From Gammaproteobacteria bacterium (GTDB lineage: Bacteria > Pseudomonadota > Gammaproteobacteria > Ga0077554 > Ga007554): a stretch of 44,653 nucleotides of DNA. Position numbers and translations under genes: made by a program. How positions within the stretch are numbered: position 1 is the stretch's first letter; each line of letters begins with the position of its first letter. Shown piece after piece: positions 20,191 to 40,350 of this stretch. The notes beneath the pieces are model-generated. The model was not told the DNA's origin, made no database searches, and worked only from the letters and a program-made list of their open reading frames with translations. The stretch covers positions 1 to 44,653 of the forward strand of contig JAGVME010000111.1 of NCBI GenBank assembly GCA_020053945.1. The letters run 5' to 3'.

Positions 20191-20346
20191 AGGGACTGCT
20201 AAAGCCAGCATGAACCGTAATGTAAGGCATTTACATTAGTTCCCACACAACGGAGGTTTTTTCAGTTGCGGTAATGGGGATAGCAAAACTTAAATTTTTC
20301 CAGTGAAAATTTTTCTAACCTAAATTAATTGATAGGGAGATTTAAC

Positions 20347-21282
20347 ATGAAATTGAAACCAAATCACTTCAAAGGACCAATACAAATGAAGCTTAAACTT
20401 GCCGCGCTGGCCACCATGATGGCCGTCTCCGCACCATCGTTCGCCCTTATTGAGGGCGCCACTTCTGGCAACGGCAGCCTGTTGCTTAACTTTATTACCC
20501 CCGGTGCCACCTCCACAAACGGCATGTCCGCCGCTTTCGATCTGGGCGTCAATCTGAATGATGTGTTGGCGTGGAACGGTATTGCCGGTTTTACCCAAAC
20601 CTGGAGCCTGACTGCCGCCAACTATGGTTCCGCCTGGAGCGATCTGCTGGGATTCTCTAGCAACGATAACGATGCGGACATCCAGTTCAACGTAATTGCG
20701 CTGGATAACACGAACAAAACTACTGTAAACAACGGTTCGCGTTACCTGACCACCGCTGATGTGGCCAAGTATCCCAGCTTGAACAACGGCAATCTGAGTG
20801 CCTTTGATCAAATGGATTTATACGTCAAGGCAAACAACGGCCTCGGCACACACCCCACAGAAGCCAATGGCGCCAGCACGGTAATGGCGGGGGATTTGCC
20901 GCTCAATAGCTATTTCCGTGGGATCAATGGAGTGCAGCAGGGTGACAACTGGCTGACCAAAACCTCGGCTGACACCACCAAGAACCTGACCACCGCCCAG
21001 AACTTCTGGTTCTTGGAAACCACACTGCCCGGCGGCAGCGCCCAGGCAAGCAAGACGGCTTTCGGTTTCGATATTGACGGCGACGGCCTGATTGAGATGG
21101 ATAACAACGGTGCTGCTGTTACTGGTGGTTTCTCCGAGTTCAGTGAGTGGTCGGTGAACATGGCCGACGGCACCATTACCTTCGCCACTCCGGTTCCCGA
21201 AGCCGAAACCTACGCCATGATGCTGGCGGGTCTGGGTCTGATCGGTTTTCTCGGCCGTCGCTGCAGGAACCGCGCTGCCTGA
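20347..21282 (+). CDS. PEP-CTERM exported protein
   Basis: A 311-residue protein. The ATG at 20347 has ribosome binding site TAGGGAG; an internal ATG at 20386 gives a shorter, cleaner signal peptide (MKLKLAALATMMAVSAPSFA) and may be the true start. The mature part is rich in Asn/Thr/Gly and has a short acidic FDIDGDGLIEMDNNG motif that looks like a calcium-binding EF-hand-like loop. The C-terminus is the sorting tail VPEAETYAMMLAGLGLIG then RRCRNR. No enzyme motif is seen. A terminator follows 88 bp after the stop. Confidence 0.87.
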   Translation: MKLKPNHFKGPIQMKLKLAALATMMAVSAPSFALIEGATSGNGSLLLNFITPGATSTNGMSAAFDLGVNLNDVLAWNGIAGFTQTWSLTAANYGSAWSDLLGFSSNDNDADIQFNVIALDNTNKTTVNNGSRYLTTADVAKYPSLNNGNLSAFDQMDLYVKANNGLGTHPTEANGASTVMAGDLPLNSYFRGINGVQQGDNWLTKTSADTTKNLTTAQNFWFLETTLPGGSAQASKTAFGFDIDGDGLIEMDNNGAAVTGGFSEFSEWSVNMADGTITFATPVPEAETYAMMLAGLGLIGFLGRRCRNRAA

Positions 21283-23138: not shown

Positions 23139-23398
23139 AGGCGCAGGGCGGGAACACGTTCCCGCCGGAATGGGTGTACCGGGAAGCGTCGGCAAGGTAT
23201 TGCCGACCTACGGATGATGATGAATAAAATGCTGTGATGGTGGGTTGAATGATTTGGTGTAGGAATTTTTTGCTGCTGGGGCGACGTAGGGCGGGAACAC
23301 TTTCCCGCCGGAATGGATGTAGTGGGAAGCGTCGGCAAAGTATTGCCGACCTACGGGAGAGGATAAAAACCCTCGGCAAGGTATTGCCGACCTACGGG
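23139..23398. repeat. REP array upstream of tpsB (five palindromes, two classes)
   Basis: Class A (GGCGGGAACACTTTCCCGCC type) occurs at 23142-23166 and 23283-23311. Class B (GTCGGCAAGGTATTGCCGAC type) occurs at 23186-23212, 23329-23357 and 23371-23398. A and B alternate, and each class B copy ends in the shared flank CCTACGG. The last copy ends on the base before the tpsB ATG. The rest of the 22984-23398 gap is non-coding; I see no good promoter for tpsB in it. Confidence 0.9.
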
Positions 23399-24958
23399 AT
23401 GATAACGAGTAAGACTCTGTGGGTGGCGTTGTGGGTACTACTTGCGGCGATGGGTTCCGCGCACGCGGAAGACGCGAAATTTGACGTATTCGAATACCGG
23501 GTAGAAGGCACGACACTGTTGCCGGTCATCGTGGTCGAGCAGGCGGTGTATCCCTATCTTGGCGATCAGAAAACCCTCGCCGATGTGGAACAGGCGCGCG
23601 AGGCGCTGGAAAAGGCCTATCACGGCGCGGGCTATCTCACCGTGCTGGTGAGTATTCCCCAGCAAAAGGTCGATAGCGGTGTGGTGAAGTTGACGGTGAC
23701 GGAAGCGCCGGTCGGCCGGTTGCGTGTCGTCGAGTCGCGCTATTTCAGCCCCGGCGAGATCCGCGCGGCCGCGCCGGAACTGGCGGAGGGGAAGGTGCCG
23801 CATTTCCCCAAAATGCAAAAAGAACTGGCGGCGCTCAACCGCAGCGCTGACCGCCGCATCACCCCCGTGCTACGTTCCGGCAAGACGCCGGGCACGGTGG
23901 AGGTCGATTTGAAGGTGCAGGACACGCTGCCGCTGCACGGCAATGTGGAAGTCAACGACCGCTATAGCCAGGACACCACGCACACCCGCCTCAGCGCTAG
24001 CCTGCGCTGGGACAACCTGTGGCAGAAACAGCATGGTGTGGGGCTGACGGTGCAGACCGCGCCGGAAAAACCCGATGAAAGCAAAGTGCTTTCGGCCAGC
24101 TATACCTGGCCGCTGGCTTCCGGAAATTATCTGGCCTTTTACGGCGTGAAATCGGATTCCGACGTGGCGGCGGTGGGCACGCTGAATGTGGTGGGCAACG
24201 GCGTAATTTTAGGCGCGCGTTACATCCTGCCGCTGCAGGGGCGTGAGGCCTTCTTCCACACTGCCACGTTAGGTCTCGATTACAAAGACTTCAACCAGTC
24301 GGTGAACCTGATCGGCAGCGGTGGTTTCAACACGCCGATCACCTATTTGCCGTTCACCCTGGGTTGGGATGGCACCTGGCTCGGCGCAGGCCGCACCACC
24401 AAATTCGGCGCAGCGTTCAATTTTCACCTGCGCGGGCTGGTGGCGGAGGAGCAGGAGTTCGCCGACAAGCGCTTCAAGGGACGGCCGAATTACGCTTACC
24501 TGCGCGGCAGCGCATCGCATAACGCAACCTGGGGCCGCGGCTGGGGTGTGAACGCGCGCGCCGGTTGGCAGCTCGCCGCGCAGCCGCTGATTGCAAACGA
24601 ACAGTTCGCCATCGGCGGGGTTGACACCGTGCGCGGTTATCTTGAATCCACCTCGCTCGGCGACAATGGCATCGCGCTCAGCCTGGAGGCGGCGACACCC
24701 AACTTCGCAAAACGGCTGGGCGCATCGCTCGATGACCTGCATCTGCTGGTGTTTGCCGATGGGGGATGGGTGCATGTACGCAGCCCGTTGCCGGAGCAGA
24801 AAGACCAATTTTCGTTGGCAAGCGCCGGGCTGGGGCTACGCCTCAAGGCATGGAAAGGCATGTCGGCCGGGCTGGACTGGGCCGTGGCGCTGGAGGAAAC
24901 CGGCAAGATACAGGCGGGCGACAACCGCGCGCATTTCCGGTTGGGTTATGAATGGTGA
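23399..24958 (+). CDS. TpsB two-partner secretion outer-membrane transporter
   Basis: A 519-residue ShlB/FhaC-type transporter that exports the TpsA partner across the outer membrane. A signal peptide (LWVALWVLLAAMGSAHA) is followed by two POTRA domains: FDVFEYRVEGTTLLP... to KLTVTEAPVGRL (about residues 25-110) and about 110-190. A 16-strand barrel follows, including DRYSQDTTHTRLSASLRWDN and the family-type FAIGGVDTVRGYLESTSLGD (VRGY, the L6 loop motif). The C-terminal strand ends in aromatic Trp. The start at ATG 23399 gives the signal peptide but has no normal ribosome binding site because a REP palindrome abuts it; a longer frame runs through the REP array and is rejected. Confidence 0.93.
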   Translation: MITSKTLWVALWVLLAAMGSAHAEDAKFDVFEYRVEGTTLLPVIVVEQAVYPYLGDQKTLADVEQAREALEKAYHGAGYLTVLVSIPQQKVDSGVVKLTVTEAPVGRLRVVESRYFSPGEIRAAAPELAEGKVPHFPKMQKELAALNRSADRRITPVLRSGKTPGTVEVDLKVQDTLPLHGNVEVNDRYSQDTTHTRLSASLRWDNLWQKQHGVGLTVQTAPEKPDESKVLSASYTWPLASGNYLAFYGVKSDSDVAAVGTLNVVGNGVILGARYILPLQGREAFFHTATLGLDYKDFNQSVNLIGSGGFNTPITYLPFTLGWDGTWLGAGRTTKFGAAFNFHLRGLVAEEQEFADKRFKGRPNYAYLRGSASHNATWGRGWGVNARAGWQLAAQPLIANEQFAIGGVDTVRGYLESTSLGDNGIALSLEAATPNFAKRLGASLDDLHLLVFADGGWVHVRSPLPEQKDQFSLASAGLGLRLKAWKGMSAGLDWAVALEETGKIQAGDNRAHFRLGYEW

Positions 24959-25837: not shown

Positions 25838-25871
25838 CGGTAACACAAACTTAACATAAGCATGCTAAATA
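25838..25871 (+). promoter_or_regulatory. Possible PhoB box upstream of tpsA
   Basis: CGGTAAC and ACTTAAC are spaced by ACAA; 10 nt later is TAAATA. The first half-site is good (6/7 to CTGTAAC), the second weak (4/7), the -10 weak. A start near 25878 would leave a leader of about 46 nt before the tpsA ATG and exclude the longer in-frame start at 25862. Confidence 0.4.
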
Positions 25872-25924
25872 GTCAGACGGCCACGCAGCATTTTAGACTG
25901 TTGGCCCTTTGTCAGGAGAATCCA

Positions 25925-28900
25925 ATGAATCGCAACTGTTACCGGCTAGTCTTCAACCCCACTTTAGGCATGATGGTGCCCGCACCGGAAACCGCGCGCA
26001 GTCGGGGTAAATCTGGCCAGGGCAAGGTAGCGGGTGGCGCGGCGTTGGCGCTGGCTGGCGCGGTGCTGGCGGGGGCGGTGTCTCCGAATATGGCGCAGGC
26101 CGAGCTGCCGGTGCCGAGCGCGGGTGGGGCAATTCCGGGTTTCGTGAGCGCCGGGCAAGCGGCCTACCAGGTCAATGGTACCCAGGCGTTGATCAATCAG
26201 GTGGGTGATAAGTCCATTCTCAATTGGCAGAGCTTTAACGTCAGCCCCGGGCACGACGTGCAGTTTCGTCAAGTAGATGGCCTCGCCACCAACAATCTGG
26301 TGCCGGGCGCCAATTTCACTTCGCTCAACCGCATCTGGGACCTCAATCCCAGCGTCATCGCAGGCAGTATTTCGCAGGCAGCGGGTCAGCAGGCGAATGT
26401 GATCCTGGTCAACAGCAACGGTATCGCCTTCATGGGTGGCTCGCAGGTAAATTTGAGCAGTTTCACGGCGAGCAGCCTGGATATCGCTGATAAGTTCGTG
26501 CTCGACAGTTTCCTCACCAATAACTCGCTCACCCCGCAGTTCGAGGGTACGGGCGGTTTCATCAAGGTGTTCGAGGGCGCAAAAATCACGGCGGGCAGCT
26601 TCGGCCGGGTGATGTTGATCGCGCCGACGGTGGTGAACAAGGGCATGGTTGAAGCGCCCGACGGCCAGGTGATCGCGGCGGCGGGCACCAAGGTGTTTCT
26701 GCGCTTGGCAGCGGGGCAGGGGCAGGGTGATCTGGGTCACAATGTGCGCGGCCTGCTGGTGGAAGTGGACAGCCCGGACGGACTGGCTGATTTTGAAACC
26801 GCCAACACTACGGTAAAGGATGGCGTGCTTGACGGACAAGTGGTGAACCTGGCCCACGCGGTGGAAGACAAGCTCGGCCATGTCACCAACCTGGGCGCAC
26901 TGTCCACGCCGCGCGGTAACGTCACTATGATCGGCTATGCGGTCAACCAGCACGGCATCGCGCGGGCGACGACTTCGGTGGTGGCGAACGGTTCGGTGTA
27001 CCTGTTGGCGAAAGACGAGGCGGTCAGCAGCACGGCCGAGGCCGCGAGGCGTGGCGGCCTGGTGATCCTGGGCGCCGGCAGCGTCACTGAAGTGTTGCCA
27101 TACGTGGCCGACGCCGCTCGCGCGCAGGATGGCCGTACGGGCGGCGCCGGGTTGGAAAAAGCATCGCAGGTATGGGCGCTAGGGCAGGATATCCGCATGG
27201 AAGGCGGGGCAGTCATTGATGCACCCGCGGGCGAAGTTAATTTCATCGCGGTGGAAAATCCCGGTGACCTGGCTACGCCTAGCACTAATCCTTTCAAGAC
27301 CGTAACCGTAAACGCTCCAGCATCGGGTACGGCGCGCATCCATATCGCTGACGGTGCGCGTATCAACGTGGCTGGCCTCGAAAACGTGCAGGTCTCCGCC
27401 GCGCGCAACAGCGTCGAAGTTGAACTGCGTGGCGACGAATTGAAGGATTCCCCCGTCAATCAGCAAGGCCCGTTGCGTGGACAAAAAGTCTATGTCGATA
27501 TTAACCAGGCGTTGGCGAACGCCAACTCGGGCAAATCGACGCTGATCACCAAGGATAGCCTCGAAAGCTACCAGGCGCGGCTGGAACGCACCGTGGCCGA
27601 GCGTTCGACGGCGGGTGGTGCGGTGAATATCCGTTCGCAAGGCGAAGCCATTCTGGAAAGCGGTGCGGTGATTGACCTGTCAGGCGGCAGCGTGCAGTAC
27701 ACTCCGGCCACCGTCAAAACCACCTTGCTGACGTCAGGCGGCAAGAACGTCGACATTTCCGACGCCGACGCCGAAACGCGCTATGACGGCATCGCCACGC
27801 GTTATGTGAAGGACTACGGGCGCTGGAACGTCAAGGAAGTGATTGATCTGGGGCAGAGCTTCCGCTATGACCCGGGCTATGTCGAAGGCAAGGACGCTGG
27901 CACGTTGAACGTGATCGGCATAAAGGCGGTGCAGCTTCAGGCTGACCTCCAGGGCAAGACCGTGACCGGCGAATTGCAGCGCGAAGCGGGAATCCAGCCC
28001 AAAGGCGCGAGCCTCACGTTGGGCAGCGACACGGTCCCGAGTGATTACAAACTCAACCAGCGCATTGTGATCGGCGCCGCGACACCCGCGGAGATCCATG
28101 CGCTTGCGTTGAATCCTACGCTATTTAGTGAAGATAAGATCGCCAACCTGCAGATATTCAGCAACCAGGCCGCCGAGGTGCGCGAAGCGCTGCGCCTGCC
28201 GCAGGGGGGCAGCGTGGCAATCACGGCCAAAGGCGTGGCGGTGAATGCTGATGTGGAAACGATGGCGGGTGCAATCAGTTTCAAGGCACGCGACAACAGC
28301 GTCGACCAAGTCACGGTGCCGCTTGATGTGACGGTGGCCGATGGCGTCACGCTGTCGGCGCGCGGCGCCTGGGCGAATGATCTGCCATCCGCGCCGGGCC
28401 ATTCCGGCGAAGCGGCGCGGGTGAACGGTGGCTCGGTTAGCTTGTCGGCGGCGGATGTGGTGCTCGGCACGGGCACGCTCATTGATGTGACGGGCGGTGG
28501 CCGCGTTAAGCCGGACGGCAAGGTGATGGTCGGCAATGGCGGCGATGTGGTGCTGGAGGCTGGCATGGTGGGCGCCTCCTTAGCCAGCGTTCGGCTGGGC
28601 GGCGAGGTGCGGGGGCACGCGTTGGGCAAAGGCGGCACGTTCACGCTTAATAGCGGAAAAATCCAAATCGGCGGCGTGGCCGATCCGGCGGCCCTTAACC
28701 TTGAGGCCGATTTTGTGGCGCAAGGCGGCTTTGCCAATTTCAACCTTACCGGCCGTGATGGCGTGACGGTGGCTGACGGCGTGACGCTGACGCCCCGGGT
28801 GGAAAGCCTGGAGTTACAGCCGGGCTATGGCTTGCAGGCGACCGGCAGCCGTATCGAAAACTTTTCCCGCACTCTGGTCCGTGATGACCGCACTCGCGAG

Positions 28901-31900
28901 GCCGCTAACCTGACGCTGATTGCCGACAGCGCTAGCTTCGGTGTTGTGAAAATCGGCGAGGGTGCGCGCATTTTGGCGGACGACGGCGCCCACGTAACAA
29001 TCACCGCGGGCAAGCGCATTGAGCTTCAGGGGCAGGTAAAAACGGCAGGGGGCAACATCAATGCCACGCTTAGCCGCCCCAACCAGGATTTCGATCCCAC
29101 CCAGACACTGTGGCTGGGGCCGCAGGCGCAGCTTGATGCCAGCGGCGCGGCACGGACATATCTGGACAGCAAGGGTAACCGGATAGGCGAAGTGCTGGGC
29201 GGCGGCACAGTCAATCTCAATGCCGGCAGGGGGTTCATCGTGACCGCTGCGGGCGCGACGATCGAAGCGAACGGCGTAGCACCAGTACGGCTTGATGTGC
29301 CAAACGAGGCGGGCGGTTTAGGGCGCATGGTCGGTAGCGATGCTGGCACCATCAGCATCGCCGCGCGCGAAGGGGTGGTGCTCGACGGCACGTTGTCGGC
29401 GCAGGCAGGAAGTGCTGGGCAACGCGGTGGCACGTTCATGCTGAGCCTCGGCGATGACGACACGCTACCGGGGACAGGTTATCCGACAAATGAGCGGATC
29501 ATAAGCCTGGCTCCGGTCACGGTGGTTCAGGGAGGCGAGCTTGAGCCCGGCGCGGCGGTTCCGTCCGCTTTCAATGGACAGGCCCGGCTGGGCGCCGATG
29601 CCCTGGAGACCGCCGGGTTCGAGCGCATTGTGCTGAAAAGCCGTGACGTTGTCCGCTTGGAAGATGGACTCGATCTTGGCGCTGGGTGGAGCGTGCCGTT
29701 GCGCGAAATCCAGCTCGATGCGCCGCGCCTCGAAACCGCAGGCGGTGCCGCGAGCCTCATCGCACATATGATCCGTCTCGGCAATTACGATAGCGGGCGC
29801 CAGGATGTTGTGAACACCCCCACGACGGGAACCGGCACGTTCAAGGCTAATGCGCAATTGCTGGAGCTGGCAGGCAATCAGACCTTGACGGGAATGGCGC
29901 GTACCGAGTTAACCGGCACACAGGAGATTCGCCTGAGGGGGATTAGCACCCCGACCAACGCGCGGCCTGCCGGGGCGCTCAAGAGCGCCGCCGATCTTGC
30001 GCTGCATGGCGCGCTTATCGCGCCTTCCACCTACAGCCTGTACACACTGGATGCGGCGGGGCGAACCATCGAGTTCACGCGCAATGCGCGGGTACCGGTG
30101 CAGCCGCTATCGGCGCTGGGCAACCTGACAGCCAAGGCGGAGGATATCGTGCAGGACGGCAATTTGTGGGCGCCGTTCGGACAGATCGACTTGCAGGCGA
30201 GCAACAGCCTGGTATTCAAAGACGGTAGCCTGACTTCGGTTGCCGCCGCGCCGGGGAACCTGATACCGTTTGGCAAAGTCGTGAACGGACGCGCCTGGAT
30301 AATGGACGTGGACGGTTCCAAGATTGAAATTAAAACCTTGCCGGAAAAATCGATCCGCATGGAAGCCGCCAGCATCGACATGCAGGCAGGCGCGAAGCTC
30401 GATCTCGCGGGTGGCGGCGACTTGCAGGCCTATGAATTCACCGTGGGGCCGGGTGGCTCGCGCGACATTCTCACTGACAAGAACACCTACGCTATCCTGC
30501 CCGGTTACGCGAGTGGGTTTGCCCCCAGCGACGCGCAGGAAAGTTTCGAGCGTTCGGGTGGCGATGCCGTCTACCTATCCGGCGTACCAGGTCTGGCTGA
30601 CGGCGTTTATACCCTGCTGCCCGCGCACTATGCCCTGCTGCCGGGTGCGTATGCGGTCAAGCTCGACACGGGTATCCAGGACCTGTTGCCCGGCCAGGCC
30701 TACAGCCGCCAGGATGGCGTTCGCGTCGCCGCCGGGTATGTGACCGACAGCCGCGCCAACGCGCCGCGTGACGCTGGCTGGCAGGGTATCCAGGTATTGA
30801 CCCGTGATCAGGTGCGGGCGCGTTCCGAGATTACGTTGACCCACGCCTCGGAGTTTTTTGCCGAGGGTAAGAACCGGCCCCAGGACGCTGGCCTGTTGTC
30901 GATCGTCACTACCGGCACCGGTAGCGATAGCCTGAAACTCGACGCGGTCTACAAGCTTGACGCGGGCAGCGGCGGGCGCGGCGCGGCGGTGGACATCAGC
31001 GCGTTGAAGCTGGCGATTACCAGTGGCGCCCCGTCGGGTATTGACTCGGATGTGACGCAGATCGACGTGGACAAGCTTAACGCGCTGGGCGCGGAGAGCC
31101 TGTTTATCGGCGGTACGCGCAGCGTCGGCAGCGATGCCACTACGCTCGCAGTCGGCGCGGATAGCGTCATGCTCGCCAATAATGCCGATCATGCTTTGCA
31201 AGCCCCTGAGGTCATTCTTGCCGCCAAAGATACGCTCACGCTCAAGTCCGGTAGCCTGATCGACGCGCAAGGCCCGGCTCAGGCTGAGGCCGATGATGCA
31301 GTGCGCTATGAGAGCGCAGGCGAGGGCGCGCTGGTACGCGCGGCCGCCACCCCGGCGAGCTTTACCCGCACCGCTAGTCCCCCCGGTATATTAATTACCC
31401 GAGGCACGCTTGTCGGCGAAGCGGGCAGCAAGGTGATCGCCGCCGATGCGATCACGCTCGACGCGACCCGGGACAACGCATTCAAAGGCGTGGTCGAGTT
31501 TAATAAAGAGGGCGCGGCGGTTGCGGGCAATCTGGCCGTGGGCGCAACGCGCATCAATTTCGGCGCGGCGCCCACAGGCAGCGAGGGCATTACCTACAGC
31601 CAGGCCGGCCTGGATGCGTTGAACAGCCTGGAAAGCATGGTGCTGACCAGTTACAGTACGTTCGATCTGTACGGCGATGTTAACGTGGGCGGGGTGGATA
31701 TCAACGGCAAACCCACGCTGCAAAATTTGACCCTGCAGGGTGCCGGATTGGCTGGCTTCAATAATAGTGGCCAGACGGCCAACCTGCGCGCGCAAAATCT
31801 CATGCTCGCCAATCCGGCTGCGGCAGCCTACACCCTGGCACCGGGTGGCGCGCCCGGTGATGGCACGCTCGCTATCCTCGCCGACACGCTTACCTTGGGT

Positions 31901-34900
31901 GAAGGCGACAAGGCAATTCAAGGTTATGGCAATGTAACCATCACCGCCAATGAAATGCTGGGCGAAGGCGTTGGCAAAACCAATATTGCCGCATCCACTA
32001 TGCTCAATGTCGCACGGATTAGCGGAGAACGCGGCGCCAACCAAACTTTGACCGCGAACGGTGCCTTAACGGCGACAAAACACATCGCCGACCGCGCGCT
32101 GGCGCCCGTGAACGCGCTGGGCGCGCGCTGGGCGTTGGCCGGTACAAGCGTCGACTTCAATACCCAGGCTGTATTGCCCTCCGGCCAATTCAAACTCACC
32201 GCCACCGGCGGCGACGTGACGCTGGGCGCTGATGCTCGCGTAGACGTGGCGGGTCGTTCCGTACAATTTTTCGACGTAAGCCGCCCGACATGGGGCGGCA
32301 CCGCCAAGTTCGTGAGTGAGACCGGCAATGTGACATTTGCCGCAGGATCAAAGGTTGATGTCTCCGCCGCGCCCGGCAGTGACGCGGGTAAACTCATTGT
32401 GCACGCCGCTCACGGCACGGCCACGCTCGCCGACGGCAGCGTGCAAGGCAATGCGTTGCCGGATGCGGAGGGCAACCGTGGCGACGGCGCGCGCTTTGAC
32501 CTCGATGTAAACACGCTGGCAAGTTTTTCTGCGCTCAACACGGTGCTCAATCAGGGGGAGTTCGATGGCGCGAGAAGCGTGCGCGTGCGCACGGGCGATT
32601 TGAATGTGGCCGCATCGGACAGCGTCAAGGCCCATGACATCAAACTTGCCGCAGATAGCGGCGCGTTGACGGTGCAGGGTGAACTCAACGCAGACGGGCG
32701 CGAAGGCGGAAGCATCCAGCTCTATAGCGGCGGCCGTCTCACGCTGGCAGACGGCGCCAAACTCTCCGCCCGCGCCTTGCAGGCGGGACGTGATGGCGGC
32801 ACCGTGACGCTGGGCAGCACGGACGAAGACACCGTACTCGCGGGCGGCAGCATTGACACCGCCGGTGCGGCCGGGGGGCAGGACGGCACGGTGCTGATCC
32901 GCGCCAGCCGCACCGACGACACCGCATTCACTCATCTTTATGCGCCGCTTCCCGATACCGGCACGGCCAATAACTACAAAGTCAGCCTGAAGGGGGTAAC
33001 GGCCGCGTCATCACTGCTCAGGGGCTTAGTCGTCTCTTTCGTACCCAAATTTACCAATAAGGCTTCCAGCAAACTGAGCATTAATAACACGGCTGCCAAG
33101 GATATTTGGTACAACGGCGCCGTTGTAAAGGCTGACCGAATCAAGGCTAACGAGACCGTTTACATGGTTTATGACGGCACCCGCTTCAACATCGTTGACG
33201 CGCCATTTGCCAATCGCACGGCAAGCGCAGTACCCGGAACATCAACCAGTTCACGTACCACGACGACCTACGTGGTCAGCCAGCCCGGCTTCATCAGCTA
33301 CAAGCCCGGCCAGACTGTGGTGTACACGCCCGATGCAGACAACACCGCAACCATAAACAAGCTCAACGTTAACGGCTTGGGCGCCAAAGACATCAAGTAC
33401 AACAACGTGAACCTGGCGGCGGGATTTTTGAAGGCGGGCGAACCGGTCTACCTTGTCTATGACGGAACAGCGTTTCAAGTGGCGCTGGAGGCAAACACTC
33501 CCCGCGCCGTGGGGACGGCCACAGCGCTGGCGGTGACCGCGACACGTGAGTTAAGCGCCGGTGATTCCTACGCCTTCGTGGCGGGCGCTAACAGTGACGC
33601 GGGCGGCACCACCCTGACCCTCAATGGCGTGACCGCTCCGCTACTGAAAAACGGCGCCGATCTGGCGGCCGCCGACATCAAAAGCAACAACCTGGTTTAT
33701 GTCACTTACGATGGCGCGGCCTTTCACTTGCTGACAGAGCTTGCCGCGAAAGTGGATGTTGGCCAAGGGGTGCGGGTGACTTCGGTGGCGGGCGACTACA
33801 CCAAAGCCATCGGTACCTCTATCACAGGCGCGTCCAGCATCGTGGTGGAGGCGGTCCGTACTTATGACGCGCTCACCGTCAATGGCGGCGGTGTGCTTGA
33901 CGCCAACCGCTTGAGCGCCGATGCCTACCGCTACTTGCCCAAGGCGGAGCGTGATAATGTCAAGGCAACGCTGGTGGGCGCCACCCCGGCTTTCGACGCA
34001 ACGAAATTCCATCTCCGGCCTGGAACCGAAATTCAGTACACAGGCAATATCGCGATGCTGAGGGATATCAATCTCGCCGACTATCGCTACGGCGGTGAGC
34101 CAGGGGTGCTGACGGTGCGCGCCGCAGGTAATCTCGATATCCAGGGCAACCTGTCGGATGGTTTCAATGTGGCGACCTCTGCTTACGACCACGACAATAA
34201 GATCGCGACCGCCTTGGTTCCCGCCGATCTGCTGGGCGGCGAGTCGTGGTCATACCGCCTGATTGCGGGCGCTGACCACGCCGCCGCCGATCCATTGGCG
34301 GTAAGGGCGGATGTGGGAGATGTGACGCTAGCGGCAGGCAAGCTGATACGCACCGGCACTGGCGATATCTACATCGCTTCAGGCAAAGACATCAAGCTCG
34401 CCGACAACAAGGCCGCGATTTATACTGCGGGTCGTCTCGCCGACCCGCAGAGCGGCTTTACCGCGCCAACCAATATAAGTAACTCGCTGAATTTTGCCCA
34501 ATTCAGCCAGAACGGCGGCAATGTTAGCCTCACTGCGCTGAACGACATCGTCGGCAAGCCATCGGCGCAGCTCTATTCTAACTGGCTGTTCCGCCAGGGT
34601 AAGGTGGATGCGGCTACCGGGCAATACACGCTCCAGCCGGCTTGGTGGGTGCGTTTCGACCAGTTTCAGCAGGGTATTGGTGCGCTGGGTGGCGGCGATG
34701 TAAGCATGAACGCGAGCGGCAAAATCGAGAATGTCTCCGCCAGCACACCGACCCAGGCGCGCATGGCTGCTACCGCGCCGGATGCCAGCCAACTGGTGAC
34801 GACGGGCGGCGGTGACGTGCGGGTGGAAACCGGCGGGGATTTACTGGGTGGTCAGTATTATGCTGACCTTGGTGAATTTGTCATCAAGTCCGGCGGTACG

Positions 34901-36976
34901 ATTGCGAGTGGCCAAGGTGTCGGAAGCGGCGCGTCGGCCAAACCGCTCTACACGATTTTGGCGCTGGGCGACGTGCAGGCGCAGGTGCAGGCGCAAGGCG
35001 AACTCGATATCCACGCCCTTATCAATCCGCATCTGGTGGTGCAGTCGTCCGGTGCGGGCGCGAATGTCAATGTCGGAAATCCAGGCAGCGCGCTCTGGAG
35101 TCTATTTTCGACCTACGGCGAAGACAGCGCGGCGTCTCTGCTCAGCTTGGGCGGCGCAGTGAATTTCCGCAACGCGCCGGGCGGTTCGCAGACGCTTGCC
35201 TCAATTCCGAACGTCTACAAACCCCCGCTCAACTTTAGTTTCAACTCGTCCCTCGGGGCATTGGTATTGTTACCGGCAAACCTGAATCTGGTCTCGTTCC
35301 AGGATGATGTGCTATTTGGGGGCTCGTCAGCCGTCATGCGTCCGGCGGCGCGCGGGGACCTGAATCTGTTGGCCGCAGGCACGGTCAGTCTGTCGGTTTC
35401 ACTGAACCTGACAGATATGGCGCCGATGCCGGACGCCATCTGGCTGGCAAGCAACACAAACGGGTTTTCACCGGCACCCTTACATTCAGGAGATTTCAAG
35501 CCTGCTGTAGTATATGCGGTTGCGGGCGATGTCGCCGGTGTGGGCAACAAACTGAATTTGACACTGGCCAAGGCCGTGAATGTGCGGGCGGGGCGGGATG
35601 TGATCGACCTTGGCATCAGCGCCCAGCATCCGAACGCGGATGATGTCAGCCGCGTAGAAGCCGGGCGGGATGTCCTTTATTCCACTAGCACGGGCCGAAA
35701 TAGCGGGTCTTATATCTGGGTCGCGGGTTCGGGGCGGCTTGAAGTGGTCGCTGGCCGCAATATTGATCTAGGGACATCGGCGGGTATCGTGAGCCGCGGC
35801 AATCTTGATAACCCGGCGCTTCCCGTGGGCGGCGCCGATATTCATGTGGCGGCGGGTGTGGGCGCAGGCGGGATCGATTATCAGGGCGCAGTGAACCGGC
35901 TGATTGCCAAACTGGAGGCCGGAACACCAGATGACGCCACGCTGTGGCAGGGACGCTGGCTCACTGGCGATATATCGTTGAGCGCCGCTGACGTGCTGAC
36001 GCGGGTCATTGAAAAAGTAGGTACACAAGATGCCAATACCCAGCGCGCGCGGGTGCGCGATATGCTGTTCACCGCGTTGCGCACCACAGGCCGCGATTTC
36101 AACGACCCTGCCAGCCCGTTTGCGGGCGACTACGCGCGGGGTTATGCCGCGCTGGAAACGGTTTTCCCGGGAATCAGGGAGCAGGAGGCGGAGGGTACCT
36201 TCAAAAACTACCAAGGTGACATCAATCTGTTTGCCAGCCGCATCATCACTGAGCGCGGCGGTGATATTGAATTCATCACGCCGGGCGGGCAGGTTGTCGT
36301 GGGTCTGGGCAACACCCCCGCCGCGTTGCTCCAGACCGAAGTGCCTGGGTCGGGTATCGGGCTTAAGGACAGCGGCGTACTCGGCATGGCGACGGTTGCC
36401 GACGGTAGCATTCGTGGGATTGCGCGTGGCGACATTCTGGTGAACCAGTCACGTATCCTTACCGTGGGCGGTGGTGATGTGCTGCTGTGGTCGAGCGAAG
36501 GCGACATCGACGCGGGCAAGGGCAAGAAAACGGCGACGTCGGTGCCGCCGCCGCTGACCCTGATCGACAGTCAGGGCAACGTCACCCAAGTGTTACAGGG
36601 CGCAGCATCGGGTAGCGGCATTGGCGCGCTCATCCCGGTGGGAGGCCGCGCGGGCGACGTCGACTTGATCGCCCCCACGGGCACGGTCAACGCAGGCGAC
36701 GCCGGTATCCGCGCAGGCAACCTCAACATCGCCGCGCAGGTGGTGCTGGGGGCGGACAACATTTCTGTTTCGGGCACCGCCACTGGCACCCCGGTGGCGG
36801 ATACCCGCGCGGTTACCGCGACGTCTTCCGGGGCGGTGACGGCGGGGGATGATGTCTCCAAAACTACCGCCGCATTATCGCAAAACCTGGCCGATGCCAC
36901 CCGCGCGGCCGAGCAATTGAAGCAAGCCTTCAAGCCCTCGTTTGTGAGCGTGGAAGTGGTCGGGTTTGGTGAATGA
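25925..36976 (+). CDS. Giant TpsA filamentous-haemagglutinin-family exoprotein (3683 aa)
   Basis: The ATG at 25925 has ribosome binding site AGGAGA and begins an extended signal peptide: MNRNCYRLVFNPTLGMMVPA, a basic stretch, then a hydrophobic core of Ala/Gly/Val. Next is the TPS secretion domain (about residues 60-300) with NWQSFNVSPGHDVQF, SIISGSI-like VIAGSISQAAGQ and NSNGIAFMGGSQVNL. Residues about 300-3000 are beta-helix-type repeats rich in Gly/Asp/Ala. Residues about 2347-2604 differ and resemble phage tail-fibre repeats. Near the C-terminus (about 3100-3600) is a DUF3739-like region with MRPAARGDLNLLAAGTVSLS, and the end SFVSVEVVGFGE is typical. It is secreted by the TpsB encoded upstream. 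Ligand or target unknown. Confidence 0.93.
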   Translation: MNRNCYRLVFNPTLGMMVPAPETARSRGKSGQGKVAGGAALALAGAVLAGAVSPNMAQAELPVPSAGGAIPGFVSAGQAAYQVNGTQALINQVGDKSILNWQSFNVSPGHDVQFRQVDGLATNNLVPGANFTSLNRIWDLNPSVIAGSISQAAGQQANVILVNSNGIAFMGGSQVNLSSFTASSLDIADKFVLDSFLTNNSLTPQFEGTGGFIKVFEGAKITAGSFGRVMLIAPTVVNKGMVEAPDGQVIAAAGTKVFLRLAAGQGQGDLGHNVRGLLVEVDSPDGLADFETANTTVKDGVLDGQVVNLAHAVEDKLGHVTNLGALSTPRGNVTMIGYAVNQHGIARATTSVVANGSVYLLAKDEAVSSTAEAARRGGLVILGAGSVTEVLPYVADAARAQDGRTGGAGLEKASQVWALGQDIRMEGGAVIDAPAGEVNFIAVENPGDLATPSTNPFKTVTVNAPASGTARIHIADGARINVAGLENVQVSAARNSVEVELRGDELKDSPVNQQGPLRGQKVYVDINQALANANSGKSTLITKDSLESYQARLERTVAERSTAGGAVNIRSQGEAILESGAVIDLSGGSVQYTPATVKTTLLTSGGKNVDISDADAETRYDGIATRYVKDYGRWNVKEVIDLGQSFRYDPGYVEGKDAGTLNVIGIKAVQLQADLQGKTVTGELQREAGIQPKGASLTLGSDTVPSDYKLNQRIVIGAATPAEIHALALNPTLFSEDKIANLQIFSNQAAEVREALRLPQGGSVAITAKGVAVNADVETMAGAISFKARDNSVDQVTVPLDVTVADGVTLSARGAWANDLPSAPGHSGEAARVNGGSVSLSAADVVLGTGTLIDVTGGGRVKPDGKVMVGNGGDVVLEAGMVGASLASVRLGGEVRGHALGKGGTFTLNSGKIQIGGVADPAALNLEADFVAQGGFANFNLTGRDGVTVADGVTLTPRVESLELQPGYGLQATGSRIENFSRTLVRDDRTREAANLTLIADSASFGVVKIGEGARILADDGAHVTITAGKRIELQGQVKTAGGNINATLSRPNQDFDPTQTLWLGPQAQLDASGAARTYLDSKGNRIGEVLGGGTVNLNAGRGFIVTAAGATIEANGVAPVRLDVPNEAGGLGRMVGSDAGTISIAAREGVVLDGTLSAQAGSAGQRGGTFMLSLGDDDTLPGTGYPTNERIISLAPVTVVQGGELEPGAAVPSAFNGQARLGADALETAGFERIVLKSRDVVRLEDGLDLGAGWSVPLREIQLDAPRLETAGGAASLIAHMIRLGNYDSGRQDVVNTPTTGTGTFKANAQLLELAGNQTLTGMARTELTGTQEIRLRGISTPTNARPAGALKSAADLALHGALIAPSTYSLYTLDAAGRTIEFTRNARVPVQPLSALGNLTAKAEDIVQDGNLWAPFGQIDLQASNSLVFKDGSLTSVAAAPGNLIPFGKVVNGRAWIMDVDGSKIEIKTLPEKSIRMEAASIDMQAGAKLDLAGGGDLQAYEFTVGPGGSRDILTDKNTYAILPGYASGFAPSDAQESFERSGGDAVYLSGVPGLADGVYTLLPAHYALLPGAYAVKLDTGIQDLLPGQAYSRQDGVRVAAGYVTDSRANAPRDAGWQGIQVLTRDQVRARSEITLTHASEFFAEGKNRPQDAGLLSIVTTGTGSDSLKLDAVYKLDAGSGGRGAAVDISALKLAITSGAPSGIDSDVTQIDVDKLNALGAESLFIGGTRSVGSDATTLAVGADSVMLANNADHALQAPEVILAAKDTLTLKSGSLIDAQGPAQAEADDAVRYESAGEGALVRAAATPASFTRTASPPGILITRGTLVGEAGSKVIAADAITLDATRDNAFKGVVEFNKEGAAVAGNLAVGATRINFGAAPTGSEGITYSQAGLDALNSLESMVLTSYSTFDLYGDVNVGGVDINGKPTLQNLTLQGAGLAGFNNSGQTANLRAQNLMLANPAAAAYTLAPGGAPGDGTLAILADTLTLGEGDKAIQGYGNVTITANEMLGEGVGKTNIAASTMLNVARISGERGANQTLTANGALTATKHIADRALAPVNALGARWALAGTSVDFNTQAVLPSGQFKLTATGGDVTLGADARVDVAGRSVQFFDVSRPTWGGTAKFVSETGNVTFAAGSKVDVSAAPGSDAGKLIVHAAHGTATLADGSVQGNALPDAEGNRGDGARFDLDVNTLASFSALNTVLNQGEFDGARSVRVRTGDLNVAASDSVKAHDIKLAADSGALTVQGELNADGREGGSIQLYSGGRLTLADGAKLSARALQAGRDGGTVTLGSTDEDTVLAGGSIDTAGAAGGQDGTVLIRASRTDDTAFTHLYAPLPDTGTANNYKVSLKGVTAASSLLRGLVVSFVPKFTNKASSKLSINNTAAKDIWYNGAVVKADRIKANETVYMVYDGTRFNIVDAPFANRTASAVPGTSTSSRTTTTYVVSQPGFISYKPGQTVVYTPDADNTATINKLNVNGLGAKDIKYNNVNLAAGFLKAGEPVYLVYDGTAFQVALEANTPRAVGTATALAVTATRELSAGDSYAFVAGANSDAGGTTLTLNGVTAPLLKNGADLAAADIKSNNLVYVTYDGAAFHLLTELAAKVDVGQGVRVTSVAGDYTKAIGTSITGASSIVVEAVRTYDALTVNGGGVLDANRLSADAYRYLPKAERDNVKATLVGATPAFDATKFHLRPGTEIQYTGNIAMLRDINLADYRYGGEPGVLTVRAAGNLDIQGNLSDGFNVATSAYDHDNKIATALVPADLLGGESWSYRLIAGADHAAADPLAVRADVGDVTLAAGKLIRTGTGDIYIASGKDIKLADNKAAIYTAGRLADPQSGFTAPTNISNSLNFAQFSQNGGNVSLTALNDIVGKPSAQLYSNWLFRQGKVDAATGQYTLQPAWWVRFDQFQQGIGALGGGDVSMNASGKIENVSASTPTQARMAATAPDASQLVTTGGGDVRVETGGDLLGGQYYADLGEFVIKSGGTIASGQGVGSGASAKPLYTILALGDVQAQVQAQGELDIHALINPHLVVQSSGAGANVNVGNPGSALWSLFSTYGEDSAASLLSLGGAVNFRNAPGGSQTLASIPNVYKPPLNFSFNSSLGALVLLPANLNLVSFQDDVLFGGSSAVMRPAARGDLNLLAAGTVSLSVSLNLTDMAPMPDAIWLASNTNGFSPAPLHSGDFKPAVVYAVAGDVAGVGNKLNLTLAKAVNVRAGRDVIDLGISAQHPNADDVSRVEAGRDVLYSTSTGRNSGSYIWVAGSGRLEVVAGRNIDLGTSAGIVSRGNLDNPALPVGGADIHVAAGVGAGGIDYQGAVNRLIAKLEAGTPDDATLWQGRWLTGDISLSAADVLTRVIEKVGTQDANTQRARVRDMLFTALRTTGRDFNDPASPFAGDYARGYAALETVFPGIREQEAEGTFKNYQGDINLFASRIITERGGDIEFITPGGQVVVGLGNTPAALLQTEVPGSGIGLKDSGVLGMATVADGSIRGIARGDILVNQSRILTVGGGDVLLWSSEGDIDAGKGKKTATSVPPPLTLIDSQGNVTQVLQGAASGSGIGALIPVGGRAGDVDLIAPTGTVNAGDAGIRAGNLNIAAQVVLGADNISVSGTATGTPVADTRAVTATSSGAVTAGDDVSKTTAALSQNLADATRAAEQLKQAFKPSFVSVEVVGFGE
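32965..33735 (+). repeat. Three phage-tail-fibre-like protein repeats inside tpsA
   Basis: Three units follow the pattern L-x-[IVL]-N-x ... K-x-I-x-x-N ... x-A-x-x-[IL]-K-A/S-x-x-x-V-Y-x-V/T-Y-D-G-x-x-F. Examples are SINNTAAKDIWYNGAVVKAD then VYMVYDGTRF; NVNGLGAKDIKYNNVNLAAG then VYLVYDGTAF; TLNGVTAPLLKNGADLAAAD then VYVTYDGAAF. Such NGLGAK...VYDGTxFQL repeats are known from phage tail fibres. DNA here is slightly richer in A/T than its surroundings. Confidence 0.75.
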
Positions 36977-37349: not shown

Positions 37350-39122
37350 ATGAAACGTCTTATCGCCCTCGTTGTGCTGCTACTGGTATTGCCCGCGTCC
37401 GCCCAGGCTTGGTGGAATGAAGAATGGACGGTGCGCAAAAAAATCACTCTGGATACCCAGGCGGCGGCTGTGCCGGTTGAGGTGGATGTGGTGCCGGTGC
37501 TGGTGCGTCTTTCCACCGGCAATTTCGACTTTCTTTCCGCCAAAGAGGATGGCTCGGATATCCGCTTTGTGGCGGAAGACGACACCACGCCGCTCAAGTT
37601 TCATATCGAGCGCTACGATGGCATTAACGAATTGGCTTTCCTCTGGGTGCAGGTGCCGAAACTGGCTGGCAATAAGGCCGCCCAGTCTATCTGGCTTTAT
37701 TACGGTAATGCACAAGCGGCTGCCGCCGACAGCAAGGCCAGTAATGATTATGGCTACGACACGTCGCAATTACTGGTTTATCACTTGAATGAAACGCAGG
37801 GTGTGCCGCAGGACGCCACGGCCAATGGCACTCATGCCAGCACCGCCAAGCTGGCCTACGTATCCGGTAGCTTGATCGCCGGGGGCGCCAAACTGGCAGG
37901 TGACGGCGGCATGGTGGCCGACAGCCCGGCGTTACAGGCAGCCCGGGAATTCACTTTTTCCGCCTGGATCAAGCCCGGGAAAGCCGATGGCGAGTTGCTG
38001 GCATTGGGCGGTTTGACGCTCAACCTGTCCGGCGGGGTGCCGGTGCTGGCAGTCAACGGCGTGAAGACGCGCGCGGCCGCATCGATTCCGCTGAATGCCT
38101 GGCATCACATCGCGGTGACGGGCGTTTTCACAGGGGAACAGGGCGGTGGCGGGACGCAGGGTTTTACCCTGTATGTGGATGGTAAGTCAGTAGTCACCAC
38201 AACGGGCACGCTGACGCCCGCGGCCAGCCTGCGCATCGGCGGCGGTTTAGTCGGCGAAATGGATGAAGTGCAGGTGTCAACGGTGGCGCGTCCCGCCGCG
38301 TGGCTGGCGGCGCAGGTGGAATCGCAGGGGCAGGCGGGCAGGCTGGTGAAATACGGCGAAGACGAAACCACCGATAGCAGCGAGGGCACATCCTATTTCA
38401 CCACCACCATGCAAAACGTGACGGTGGACGGCTGGGTGGTGATCATCATCCTGGCGTTCATGTTCGTGATTGCGGTATGGGTAATGGTGACCAAAGCGCT
38501 CCTTTTAGGACGAATGGAAAAAGCCAACGCAACTTTCGCCGAAGAGTTTGGCAAGATGTCACGCGGGCTGGCGGAACTGGACGACAGCGTAACCGCCCAC
38601 GCGGGCAAGATGGACCATCTAGCCAAAATGATGGATGAGTTCAAACATTCTTCCCTGTACCGCATTTATCATGTCGGCGTGACGGAATTGAAACACCGCT
38701 TTCCGTCTTCCGCTAGCGCAGTGGGCGCGCCGGATAGTTTGCCCGTGATCTCCCCCCAATCCATCAACGCGGTGCGCGCCAGCCTGGATGCGCAATTGGT
38801 GCGTGAAGGGCATCGCCTGAACCAAGCAATGGTACTGCTCACTATAGCTATTTCCGGTGGCCCCTTTCTCGGCCTGCTGGGTACGGTGGTCGGGGTGATG
38901 ATCACGTTCGCGGCGATTGCCGCCACCGGCGACGTCAACGTCAACGCTATCGCGCCCGGTATCGCGGCGGCGCTGGTAGCCACCGTAGCCGGTTTGGCGG
39001 TGGCGATTCCGGCGCTGTTTGGTTACAACTACCTCACCTCCAAGATCAAAACCATCTCGGCTGACATGCACATATTTGTGGATGAGTTCATCACCAAAAT
39101 GGCCGAGAATTACGGGGGCTGA
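37350..39122 (+). CDS. DUF2341-LamG-ExbB/TolQ fusion protein
   Basis: A 590-residue protein. A signal peptide (LVVLLLVLPASAQA) is followed by WWNEEWTVRKKITLDTQ, the opening of DUF2341 (about 20-130). A LamG/concanavalin-like jelly roll follows (about 140-325; FTFSAWIKPG, AWHHIAVTGVF, LYVDGK, GEMDEVQVS). From residue about 355 comes an ExbB/TolQ/MotA proton-channel unit with a membrane segment VIIILAFMFVIAVWVMVTKA, a cytoplasmic helical part, and the conserved last two helices (GGPFLGLLGTVVGVMITF; APGIAAALVATVAGLAVAIP). ExbB drives TonB from the proton-motive force. The periplasmic lectin-like extension is absent from normal ExbB and could sense or bind a ligand. It is the first gene of the operon, two bases from exbD. 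Confidence 0.9.
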   Translation: MKRLIALVVLLLVLPASAQAWWNEEWTVRKKITLDTQAAAVPVEVDVVPVLVRLSTGNFDFLSAKEDGSDIRFVAEDDTTPLKFHIERYDGINELAFLWVQVPKLAGNKAAQSIWLYYGNAQAAAADSKASNDYGYDTSQLLVYHLNETQGVPQDATANGTHASTAKLAYVSGSLIAGGAKLAGDGGMVADSPALQAAREFTFSAWIKPGKADGELLALGGLTLNLSGGVPVLAVNGVKTRAAASIPLNAWHHIAVTGVFTGEQGGGGTQGFTLYVDGKSVVTTTGTLTPAASLRIGGGLVGEMDEVQVSTVARPAAWLAAQVESQGQAGRLVKYGEDETTDSSEGTSYFTTTMQNVTVDGWVVIIILAFMFVIAVWVMVTKALLLGRMEKANATFAEEFGKMSRGLAELDDSVTAHAGKMDHLAKMMDEFKHSSLYRIYHVGVTELKHRFPSSASAVGAPDSLPVISPQSINAVRASLDAQLVREGHRLNQAMVLLTIAISGGPFLGLLGTVVGVMITFAAIAATGDVNVNAIAPGIAAALVATVAGLAVAIPALFGYNYLTSKIKTISADMHIFVDEFITKMAENYGG

Positions 39123-39124
39123 CC

Positions 39125-39544
39125 ATGGCAAAAGCTCAGGAAGAAGGCGCGCTATACGACGATATCAACGTTACGCCGATGCTGGATCTGGCCTACGTAT
39201 TGCTGATTATTTTTATCATCATGACCACCGCGTCAGTGCAGGGCATCAAGGTCAACCTGCCCAAAGCCAGCAATACCCCGAGCCTGGCGAAGCCCACCAC
39301 CAAGGCGATCACGATCACCCAGGACGGGACACTGTATCTGGATGCGTATCCGGTCGCGTCGTTGCAAGATCTGGAATCCCGGCTGATGGCTTATAAGGCC
39401 AGCACCCCGCAATTTCCGATCGTGGTCAAAGGTGATTCCGCTGTGCAGTACCAAAAAGTAATCGAGGTGCTGGATTTGCTGGGACGCCTGGAACTCACCC
39501 AGATCGGACTCGTGACGCAGCGGTCAGGAGTCAAGCATGAGTAA
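39125..39544 (+). CDS. exbD: ExbD/TolR-type proton-channel subunit
   Basis: A 139-residue single-pass inner-membrane protein. The helix MLDLAYVLLIIFIIMTTA contains the conserved membrane Asp that carries protons in ExbD/TolR, preceded by DINVTPM. The periplasmic domain has the usual TKAITITQDGTLYLD and PIVVKGDSAVQYQKV pattern. It works with the ExbB domain encoded just upstream (2-bp gap). Its last codons lie in one arm of a 22-bp inverted repeat, and its stop overlaps a short ATGAGTAA frame. Confidence 0.94.
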   Translation: MAKAQEEGALYDDINVTPMLDLAYVLLIIFIIMTTASVQGIKVNLPKASNTPSLAKPTTKAITITQDGTLYLDAYPVASLQDLESRLMAYKASTPQFPIVVKGDSAVQYQKVIEVLDLLGRLELTQIGLVTQRSGVKHE

Positions 39545-39682
39545 CTTGAACAATTGGCCGCTTGCAGGCGAGATGCCATGCGAGGCGTCGAATGCGCGGT
39601 GTGGCAAGCCACATAAGCATTCGACAACGACGCAGGGCGCTCGCATGGAAGATGGACAATGTTCAAGTTACTCATGCTTGAC
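39530..39682. repeat. Palindromic element at the exbD-tonB junction
   Basis: A perfect 22-bp inverted repeat, GTCAAGCATGAGTAACTTGA and two more bases at 39530-39551, recurs inverted at 39661-39682. Inner arms such as CCATGCGAG...CTCGCATGG extend the pairing. The heptamer AGTCAAG occurs at both borders (39529-39535 and 39688-39694) and may be a target duplication. A 50-codon frame (39537-39689, good ribosome binding site AGGAG) runs through it; its product looks repeat-derived. Confidence 0.8.
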
Positions 39683-39693
39683 GACTTAGTCAA

Positions 39694-40350
39694 GTGAGCG
39701 CAGCGGACAAGACTTTGCGGCGCTGGCGTCCCGCGCTGGTGGTGGGCATCGGATTGGTGTTGGTGACGGTGCTGATCTGGTTGGCGATCAAGGAATTCGT
39801 GGTCGCGGATAAAGACAAAAAGAAGCGCGTGATTCAGGAGATATCGCTGGTAAGGCCGCCTCCACCGCCCCCACCACCGCCGAAAAGAATTGAAGAACCG
39901 CCCAAGCCGGAGATTCCGCAAAAAGTCGATGTGCCCAAGCCGGATCAGCCCCCCGACAAGCCGGTAGAGGCGCCGCCCCCCGATACGGGCATACCGGACG
40001 GTCCTGCAGGAGGAATGGCAACGGATCTGGCCGTAGGCACCGGTAGCGGCATTATTGGCGGGGGCGGCGGCATTGGCAACCGCTTTGCCTGGTACGGCGC
40101 GCTGGTTAAGGAGCGCATCCAGGAAGCGGTGGCACGGGATAAAAAACTACGCGAGGCGGATTACCGGATCATGGTCAACGTCTGGATCAATGCCAGCGGT
40201 ACAGTGACCCAGGCCGAGTTGATTAGCTCCACTGGCGATACGGAGCTGGATAGCGCGCTTAAAGTAGCCTTGCGTAATCTGCCGCCATTACGTGAAGGGG
40301 CGCCCGGGGATATGCCGCAACCGATTAAATTACGGATTACCGCGCGCTGA
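39694..40350 (+). CDS. tonB: TonB-family energy transducer
   Basis: A 218-residue protein with N-terminal membrane anchor (ALVVGIGLVLVTVLIWLAI), a proline-rich periplasmic spacer starting VRPPPPPPPPPKRIEEP, a Gly-rich linker and a C-terminal TonB domain (about 130-218) with ALVKERIQEAV, VNVWINASGTVTQAELISST and PIKLRITAR. TonB carries energy from ExbBD to outer-membrane receptors. No TonB-dependent receptor gene is in the window; a porin follows instead. The GTG start at 39694 has no clear ribosome binding site, apparently because the palindromic element separates it from the AGGAG at the end of exbD. Confidence 0.9.
   Translation: MSAADKTLRRWRPALVVGIGLVLVTVLIWLAIKEFVVADKDKKKRVIQEISLVRPPPPPPPPPKRIEEPPKPEIPQKVDVPKPDQPPDKPVEAPPPDTGIPDGPAGGMATDLAVGTGSGIIGGGGGIGNRFAWYGALVKERIQEAVARDKKLREADYRIMVNVWINASGTVTQAELISSTGDTELDSALKVALRNLPPLREGAPGDMPQPIKLRITAR

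Follow-up and report, generated by a model that had tools for sequence, protein, structure and literature searches.

A giant two-partner secretion (TPS) exoprotein, TpsA, of a gammaproteobacterium carries a block of three tandem units related to phage tail-fibre proteins at a site where its homologues have a loop of a few residues. The gene lies in a window of 44,653 nucleotides, which is the whole stretch of DNA analysed here. We consider it likely that three phage bead domains were inserted into a loop of the TpsA beta-helix, where they would form an extra-helical spacer or adhesive appendage and not a receptor-binding tip. The case is carried by a sequence profile and by the empty site in the homologues.

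The TpsA exoprotein and its secretion cluster

The TpsA open reading frame (25862–36976; this frame, its domains, the TpsB and DUF2341-LamG-ExbB genes and all features of the inserted block lie on the plus strand) encodes 3704 residues with Pfam matches to ESPR, TPS and DUF3739. Because the Pfam match to the extended signal peptide (ESPR; residues 22–70, 25925–26071; PF13018, E = 1.6e-14) begins at a methionine, the true start of the protein is probably Met22 (25925), 21 residues after the first possible start. The best stretch of the N-terminal TPS secretion domain covers residues 101–288 (26162–26725) and scores 70.1 bits against PF05860 (cut-off 33.5; E = 3.6e-19). The domain reads NSNG at the place of the NPNG motif and matches TIGR01901 (adhes_NPXG) at E = 6e-14. 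DUF3739 lies near the C-terminus (residues 3537–3645, 36470–36796; PF12545, E = 5e-38), and no toxin domain family of Pfam or NCBIfam was matched in TpsA.

TpsA is adjoined by the gene for its TpsB transporter (23249–24958), which has POTRA and ShlB/FhaC barrel domains (PF03865 and PF08479). On the 3' side of TpsA, the stretch 37350–40347 encodes a fusion of DUF2341 and LamG domains with an ExbB/TolQ-like protein (37350–39122), together with ExbD/TolR-like and TonB-like proteins; a Porin_5 porin follows. The DUF2341-ExbB fusion is a frequent neighbour of TpsA, with relatives (blastp, E ≤ 1e-10) in 51 of the 80 named homologue loci, which are the best 80 of 302 confirmed and many of which are cut short. 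TPS systems of this type may, to judge from this neighbourhood, have an energised partner. The source genome is a 2.14-Mb draft of 155 contigs, 85.62% complete and 2.26% contaminated.

Three tail-fibre units within one open frame

Alignments, loop lengths and BLAST junctions place the inserted block at approximately residues 2354–2632 (32921–33757). It holds three diverged units of 73–78 residues, all inside the one open TpsA frame. Unit 1 (residues 2366–2443, 32957–33190) scores 46.6 bits (E = 1.7e-16) with a profile made from phage units only. It is joined by a Ser/Thr-rich linker (33191–33256) to unit 2 (residues 2466–2540, 33257–33481; 51.9 bits, E = 3.7e-18), the best conserved of the three. 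A second linker (33482–33511), delimited by the unit limits of the same profile, leads to unit 3 (residues 2551–2623, 33512–33730; 31.2 bits, E = 1.1e-11).

The original prediction had recognised three tandem units at this place. They stand, in one frame and with profile scores well above chance, but at residue numbers about 20 higher than the approximate range 2347–2604 given then; the earlier start, 32965, is by arithmetic not the start of a codon, and the whole insertion runs from 32921 to 33757. The motif NGLGAK...VYDGTxF, thought to mark the units, is found in full in unit 2, while unit 1 reads NNTAAK...VYDGTRF and unit 3 NGVTAP...TYDGAAF. The Ser/Thr-rich linker SAVPGTSTSSRTTTT (residues 2455–2469), previously assigned to the flanks, sits between units 1 and 2.

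The phage-only profile comprises 93 phage units from 83 IMG/VR frames and no window sequence. Its seed was one unit of an IMG/VR contig (L033), itself found by a search with the window units, and 80 loci were kept of 236 confirmed relatives of this unit. Applied to the 3704-residue TpsA, the profile returned nothing above background but the three units, the four further stretches listed all having negative scores. As a control, the block was shuffled 2000 times, and no domain in these shuffles exceeded 10.1 bits. The HMM check that had been suggested, made here with a profile of phage units, upheld the relation for every unit. A first profile, built from the three window units, was run on four phage regions chosen from weak tblastn matches of unit 2, and in every region it matched one or more proteins of the tail or tail fibre.

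Searches of Pfam, PHROGs and NCBIfam gave no significant match to the block. Unit-bearing phage proteins match two PHROGs over the unit, phrog_4900 (tail protein) and phrog_28171 (unknown function). Single-sequence phmmer against the PDB gave weak matches only (five sequences at E ≤ 1, best 0.083), and the full-length block, as a tblastn query against phages, gave none at 0.01. With unit 2 as the tblastn query, 20 phage records were found at E ≤ 10 (best 7e-4), 14 of them annotated as tail or tail fibre, and a single match, a hypothetical protein at E = 2e-3, was found among 72,556 plasmid records. At the level of sequence, the relation of the block to phage units becomes firm only through profiles.

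The insertion site is empty in homologues

The site of insertion is the loop after VLIRASRTDD; an example of the corresponding sequence in family relatives is VLLRAPRID, succeeded by about ten residues. In 76 of the 80 named homologue loci this loop measures 1–38 residues (median 6), against approximately 285 for its counterpart in the window. The closest locus, a Rhodoferax MAG (L036), has flanks 67% (before) and 61% (after) identical to those of the window, and BLAST leaves 8 residues between the aligned flanks in L036 compared with 296 in the window. Outside the 76 measured loci, L071 and L082 start within the right flank, so that the site is missing, and L112 and L091 have about 8 and 12 residues at the site, as read from profile ends. 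Neither profile detected a unit in the 5122 frames of the 80 loci (best scores 6.7 and 8.6 bits), an absence that applies to the DNA fetched, several loci holding TpsA in part.

Among the genomes of 95 relatives, 7 have a TpsA homologue, the source genome included; the other six are without the block, one of them with a partial gene. The two sets of homologues overlap by two members (L062 and L068 are identical to G003 and G002). The block is an insertion relative to TpsA homologues. The comparison with homologues, proposed together with the original prediction, agrees with it, in that the block is absent wherever the site is readable (the 76 loops and the six genomes). The block is known from one genome.

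TpsA proteins of Comamonadaceae, Nitrosomonadaceae, Thiobacillaceae and Hydrogenophilales (such as L036–L050 and L097), with flanks up to 67% and 61% identical, align with the window protein to the C-terminus, where its DUF3739 lies, and in many of these loci relatives of TpsB and of the DUF2341-ExbB protein adjoin. They differ in having a loop of a few residues in place of some 280, and no tail-fibre unit was found in them. In L091, a different extra stretch of about 70–80 residues (TpsA residues ~2425–2510) lies just downstream of the same site; its one match among phages, a tail protein J at E = 2, is at chance level.

Predicted fold of the units

An AlphaFold2 model of unit 1, computed from an alignment with 59 other units, two of them from the window, consists mostly of strands and has high confidence (pLDDT 93.1, pTM 0.82). 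Foldseek against the PDB ranked the tail fibre of Pseudomonas phage Pa193 first (E = 4.8e-3), with no match at 1e-3. VIA-align superposed the model on residues 248–333 of this fibre (gp47, PDB 9b45) with a Z-score of 9.4 and an rmsd of 2.2 over 83 aligned residues at 19% identity; the next row had a Z-score of 3.3. The likeness is that of the same small all-beta fold across the whole unit. Structure prediction, likewise suggested beforehand, yielded a confident model of unit 1 with one strong PDB match, a tail fibre. In a viral structure library, which contains viral proteins only and is silent on hosts, 47 predicted proteins matched at E ≤ 1e-3.

The three-unit block, modelled as a single chain without the beta-helix, reached a pLDDT of 85.3 and a pTM of 0.53, and because of this pTM the mutual placement of the units is not fixed by the model. 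The pLDDT drops below 50 at residues 2448–2459 (90–101 of the model), just before the Ser/Thr-rich linker sequence and over its start. Residues 100–187 of the block model, corresponding to unit 2, superpose on the Pa193 fibre with a Z-score of 9.0. The whole block was compared by VIA only, and separate Pa193 matches were obtained for units 1 and 2, not for unit 3.

For residues 1–340 of the Pa193 fibre, the 9b45 entry is described as containing an AlphaFold model that was fitted into the density and then refined (CC 0.71; PMC11042391). As the reference is itself an AlphaFold model, the fold match is less independent and partly expected. A profile search of PDB sequences returned the Pa193 fibre chain at 1.3e-12 and the next sequence at 0.045; this sequence match is independent of the agreement between models. 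In Pa193 the unit sits close to the baseplate in a trimeric fibre of the virion, whereas the window has three diverged copies in one TpsA chain. Because it lies within a TpsA exoprotein beside TpsB, the window unit is a relocated one and not a tail fibre.

Distribution of the unit and direction of transfer

The canonical phage unit was found at E ≤ 1e-3 in 246 of 50,697 phage records, 228 of which are Pseudomonas phages; among the matches listed, 16 of 20 are annotated as tail or tail fibre. The 83 unit-bearing IMG/VR frames comprise 75 with one copy, seven with two and one with four, and some IMG/VR loci are one contig (L033 and L116, for example). In bacteria, at least 7 of 369 genomes of the class and at least 23 of 398 of the phylum hold the unit, counts that both include the source genome and are lower bounds, since in many genomes scoring covered a part of the first-look candidates.

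Unit-bearing frames other than TpsA measure 166–1225 residues and are mostly phage-like where checked. The class search gave six other proteins. Five of these were compared with PHROGs, and two matched tail-named families, two matched phage families of unknown function and one (644 residues) matched none; the sixth (1086 residues) has a GDSL lipase domain according to Pfam. From the phylum search, 10 of about 24 other proteins were scanned: seven had tail-named matches, one matched unknown function only and two had no match. Both of the latter adjoin phage genes, either those for tape measure and tail-tip J or that for an SU10-type capsid. Because the scanned frames other than TpsA are mostly tail-like or lie beside phage genes, the block was likely captured by the bacterium from a phage. 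Such a capture from a phage or prophage, as originally predicted, is the best reading, given that the units are related to those of tail fibres in both sequence and predicted fold, and that the block is absent from readable homologues.

A source prophage was not found in the genome itself, whose sole units are the three in TpsA (at 85.62% completeness of the assembly). A tree of the units, with 89 rows and 84 columns, gives no donor phage: no starred set of half the rows or fewer holds a window unit. The window units sit on long branches, with units 1 and 2 as sisters (94/83) and unit 3 elsewhere among other units. They are 30–40% identical to one another and resemble phage units at least as much as they do each other. 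The block therefore did not arise by recent triplication of a single unit: either the bacterium took up a tandem array already formed, of the sort found in a few phages, or the copies have been diverging for a long time. At the 20 positions best conserved in phages, unit 1 keeps 45%, unit 2 75% and unit 3 40%, compared with 91% on average and 55% at the lowest for the phage rows.

Composition of the block

The G+C content of the block is 0.569 against 0.622 (s.d. 0.017) in segments of equal length along the gene, and is below every one of them. Its GC3 is 0.688 against 0.719 (s.d. 0.034), with 21% of the gene segments as low, and its codon usage is within the range of the gene, with 13% of segments as unusual. 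Since GC3 and codon usage lie within the gene's range, the A/T excess stems mostly from amino-acid composition. The A/T-richness seen in the original prediction is thus real, the G+C being the lowest in the gene, but it loses its value as a sign of recent foreign origin because the codon level is ordinary. A comparison of stretches from either end of the block gave no common word of 7–14 bases, and so no target-site repeat.

Origin of the locus and other features of the window

The contig is part of the source genome, as shown by a histidine-kinase-like protein (5559–7865) that is 90% identical to its counterpart in a genome of the same genus. In a quick tree without bootstrap, the window TpsA nevertheless lies apart from the TpsA of its own family and clusters with those of Comamonadaceae, Nitrosomonadaceae and Thiobacillaceae (20-row set, SH-aLRT 99). 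The G+C content is mostly 0.57–0.65 at about 21–38.5 kb and mostly 0.51–0.575 at 5–19 kb and at the right end; as it is also 0.59–0.63 at 2–4.5 kb, composition lends weak support to a foreign cluster. The TPS-ExbB-ExbD-TonB-porin cluster (approximately 21000–42800) was probably acquired horizontally from another lineage.

Elsewhere in the window, the gene for the 16S rRNA methyltransferase RsmB (3309–4931) encodes some 90 extra in-frame residues (approximately 245–335; insert at about 4041–4330). The insert is absent from the homologues of five of seven other genomes of the family (G002, G003, G004, G006 and G007), and its DNA contains inverted repeats and has 56 matches in its own genome, itself included. 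It represents interspersed repeats within a housekeeping gene. Two PEP-CTERM proteins (18818–19339 and 20329–21282) are adjoined by an endonuclease/phosphatase-family protein with lamin-tail and RTX domains (15956–18766).

A proposed role for the block

In the arrangement that we propose, three bead units would have entered, in frame, a loop between two beta-helix strands, in one event or stepwise. TpsA with its units would be exported through its TpsB partner and fold outside the cell. The units may then fold as small beta-domains jutting from the side of the fibre, with unit 1 tied to the other two by a flexible Ser/Thr linker. In the literature, beta-helical TpsA proteins are portrayed as scaffolds, with functions that probably reside in loops and extra-helical elements (PMC5422565), and the block may, tentatively, be a spacer or adhesive appendage of this kind.

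In the description of the Pa193 fibre, residues 1–340 make up about 30% of the fibre and form three beads on a string, the first bound to the baseplate and each with three four-stranded sheets (PMC11042391). By position, residues 248–333 would correspond to bead III. Because the Pa193 match falls inside the baseplate-proximal residues 1–340, the unit is assigned to the shaft and not to the tip, and the receptor-binding module of the original prediction gives way to a bead-like shaft element. The copy number of three, together with the three four-stranded sheets of the Pa193 beads, raises the idea that the tandem units form one single-chain pseudo-trimeric bead, rebuilt from a three-chain phage domain. 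A pseudo-trimer would let a trimeric phage part work on a single-chain fibre; we regard it as rather unlikely, and the block model, at its pTM of 0.53, neither supports nor contradicts it.

Alternative explanations

The main rival to a functional appendage is a selectively neutral insertion, in which a piece of a tail-fibre gene entered a tolerant loop and has since been idle and slowly decaying. The variable length of the loop among homologues (1–38 residues), the occurrence of the block in a single genome and the many conserved positions lost in units 1 and 3, which are compatible with passenger drift, lend this explanation some appeal. We nevertheless judge it somewhat unlikely, because the frame has stayed open over approximately 840 bases, the phage-only profile still recognises each of the three units, a good fold is predicted for unit 1 and the codon usage does not depart from the range of the gene. 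The open frame, the recognisable units, the predicted fold and the ordinary codon usage suggest that the block has been kept intact for some time. That it instead acts as a captured receptor-binding module, giving the exoprotein a phage-like target specificity, is quite improbable. In its favour are the kinship of the units with tail-fibre proteins and the exchangeable receptor-binding regions described for CdiA proteins (PMC5371414); against it, the matching Pa193 unit is baseplate-proximal, and the phage frames with one, two or four copies suit a shaft.

Transfer in the opposite direction, of a bacterial surface domain borrowed by phages, could account for the window units not being near any single phage unit and for the sister grouping of units 1 and 2, although long branches may attract; a few unit-bearing proteins, moreover, have no assigned context (the GDSL lipase of 1086 residues and the protein of 644 residues without a PHROG match). 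It is very unlikely in view of the 246 phage records and 83 IMG/VR frames, set against at least 7 of 369 and at least 23 of 398 bacterial genomes, and of the absence of the unit from the DNA fetched for the 80 TpsA loci; besides TpsA, no frame exceeds 1225 residues and those checked are mostly phage-like. An assembly artefact, with a phage stretch misjoined into the gene, comes to mind with a draft of so many contigs, incomplete and slightly contaminated, but is very unlikely, as both junctions are in frame, one loop is neatly replaced, GC3 and codon usage of the block lie within the gene's range and the genome has no second copy of the stretch. An inserted run of phage bead domains, carried on the fibre as a spacer or adhesive appendage, is the reading we prefer.

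Relation to known systems and significance

Among TPS proteins, CdiA resembles the window TpsA in being TPS-secreted with a variable middle region, which in CdiA decides the receptor. According to PMC5371414, the central region of CdiA differs by class and the receptors are known, whereas in the window TpsA a phage domain has been added in a loop. Exported polymorphic toxins have been listed with 'tail-fiber' repeats, in some cases beside filamentous-haemagglutinin repeats (PMC3482391), and the T5SS row of that source names haemagglutinin repeats only. Such toxins are a precedent: repeats of tail-fibre type, be they the window's unit or a different one, are on record for exported bacterial proteins, and the kind of arrangement is therefore already known. 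The present architecture was not found in the literature on tail-fibre domains in TPS proteins and adhesins that was searched, which included no preprints and few subscription papers.

The window TpsA offers a clear and narrowly bounded case of a phage virion-type domain within a bacterial exoprotein, with an empty site in 76 homologues. The case points to an ability of giant beta-helix exoproteins to take whole runs of foreign domains, approximately 280 residues long, into their loops, and so bears on how these exoproteins gain new surface parts.
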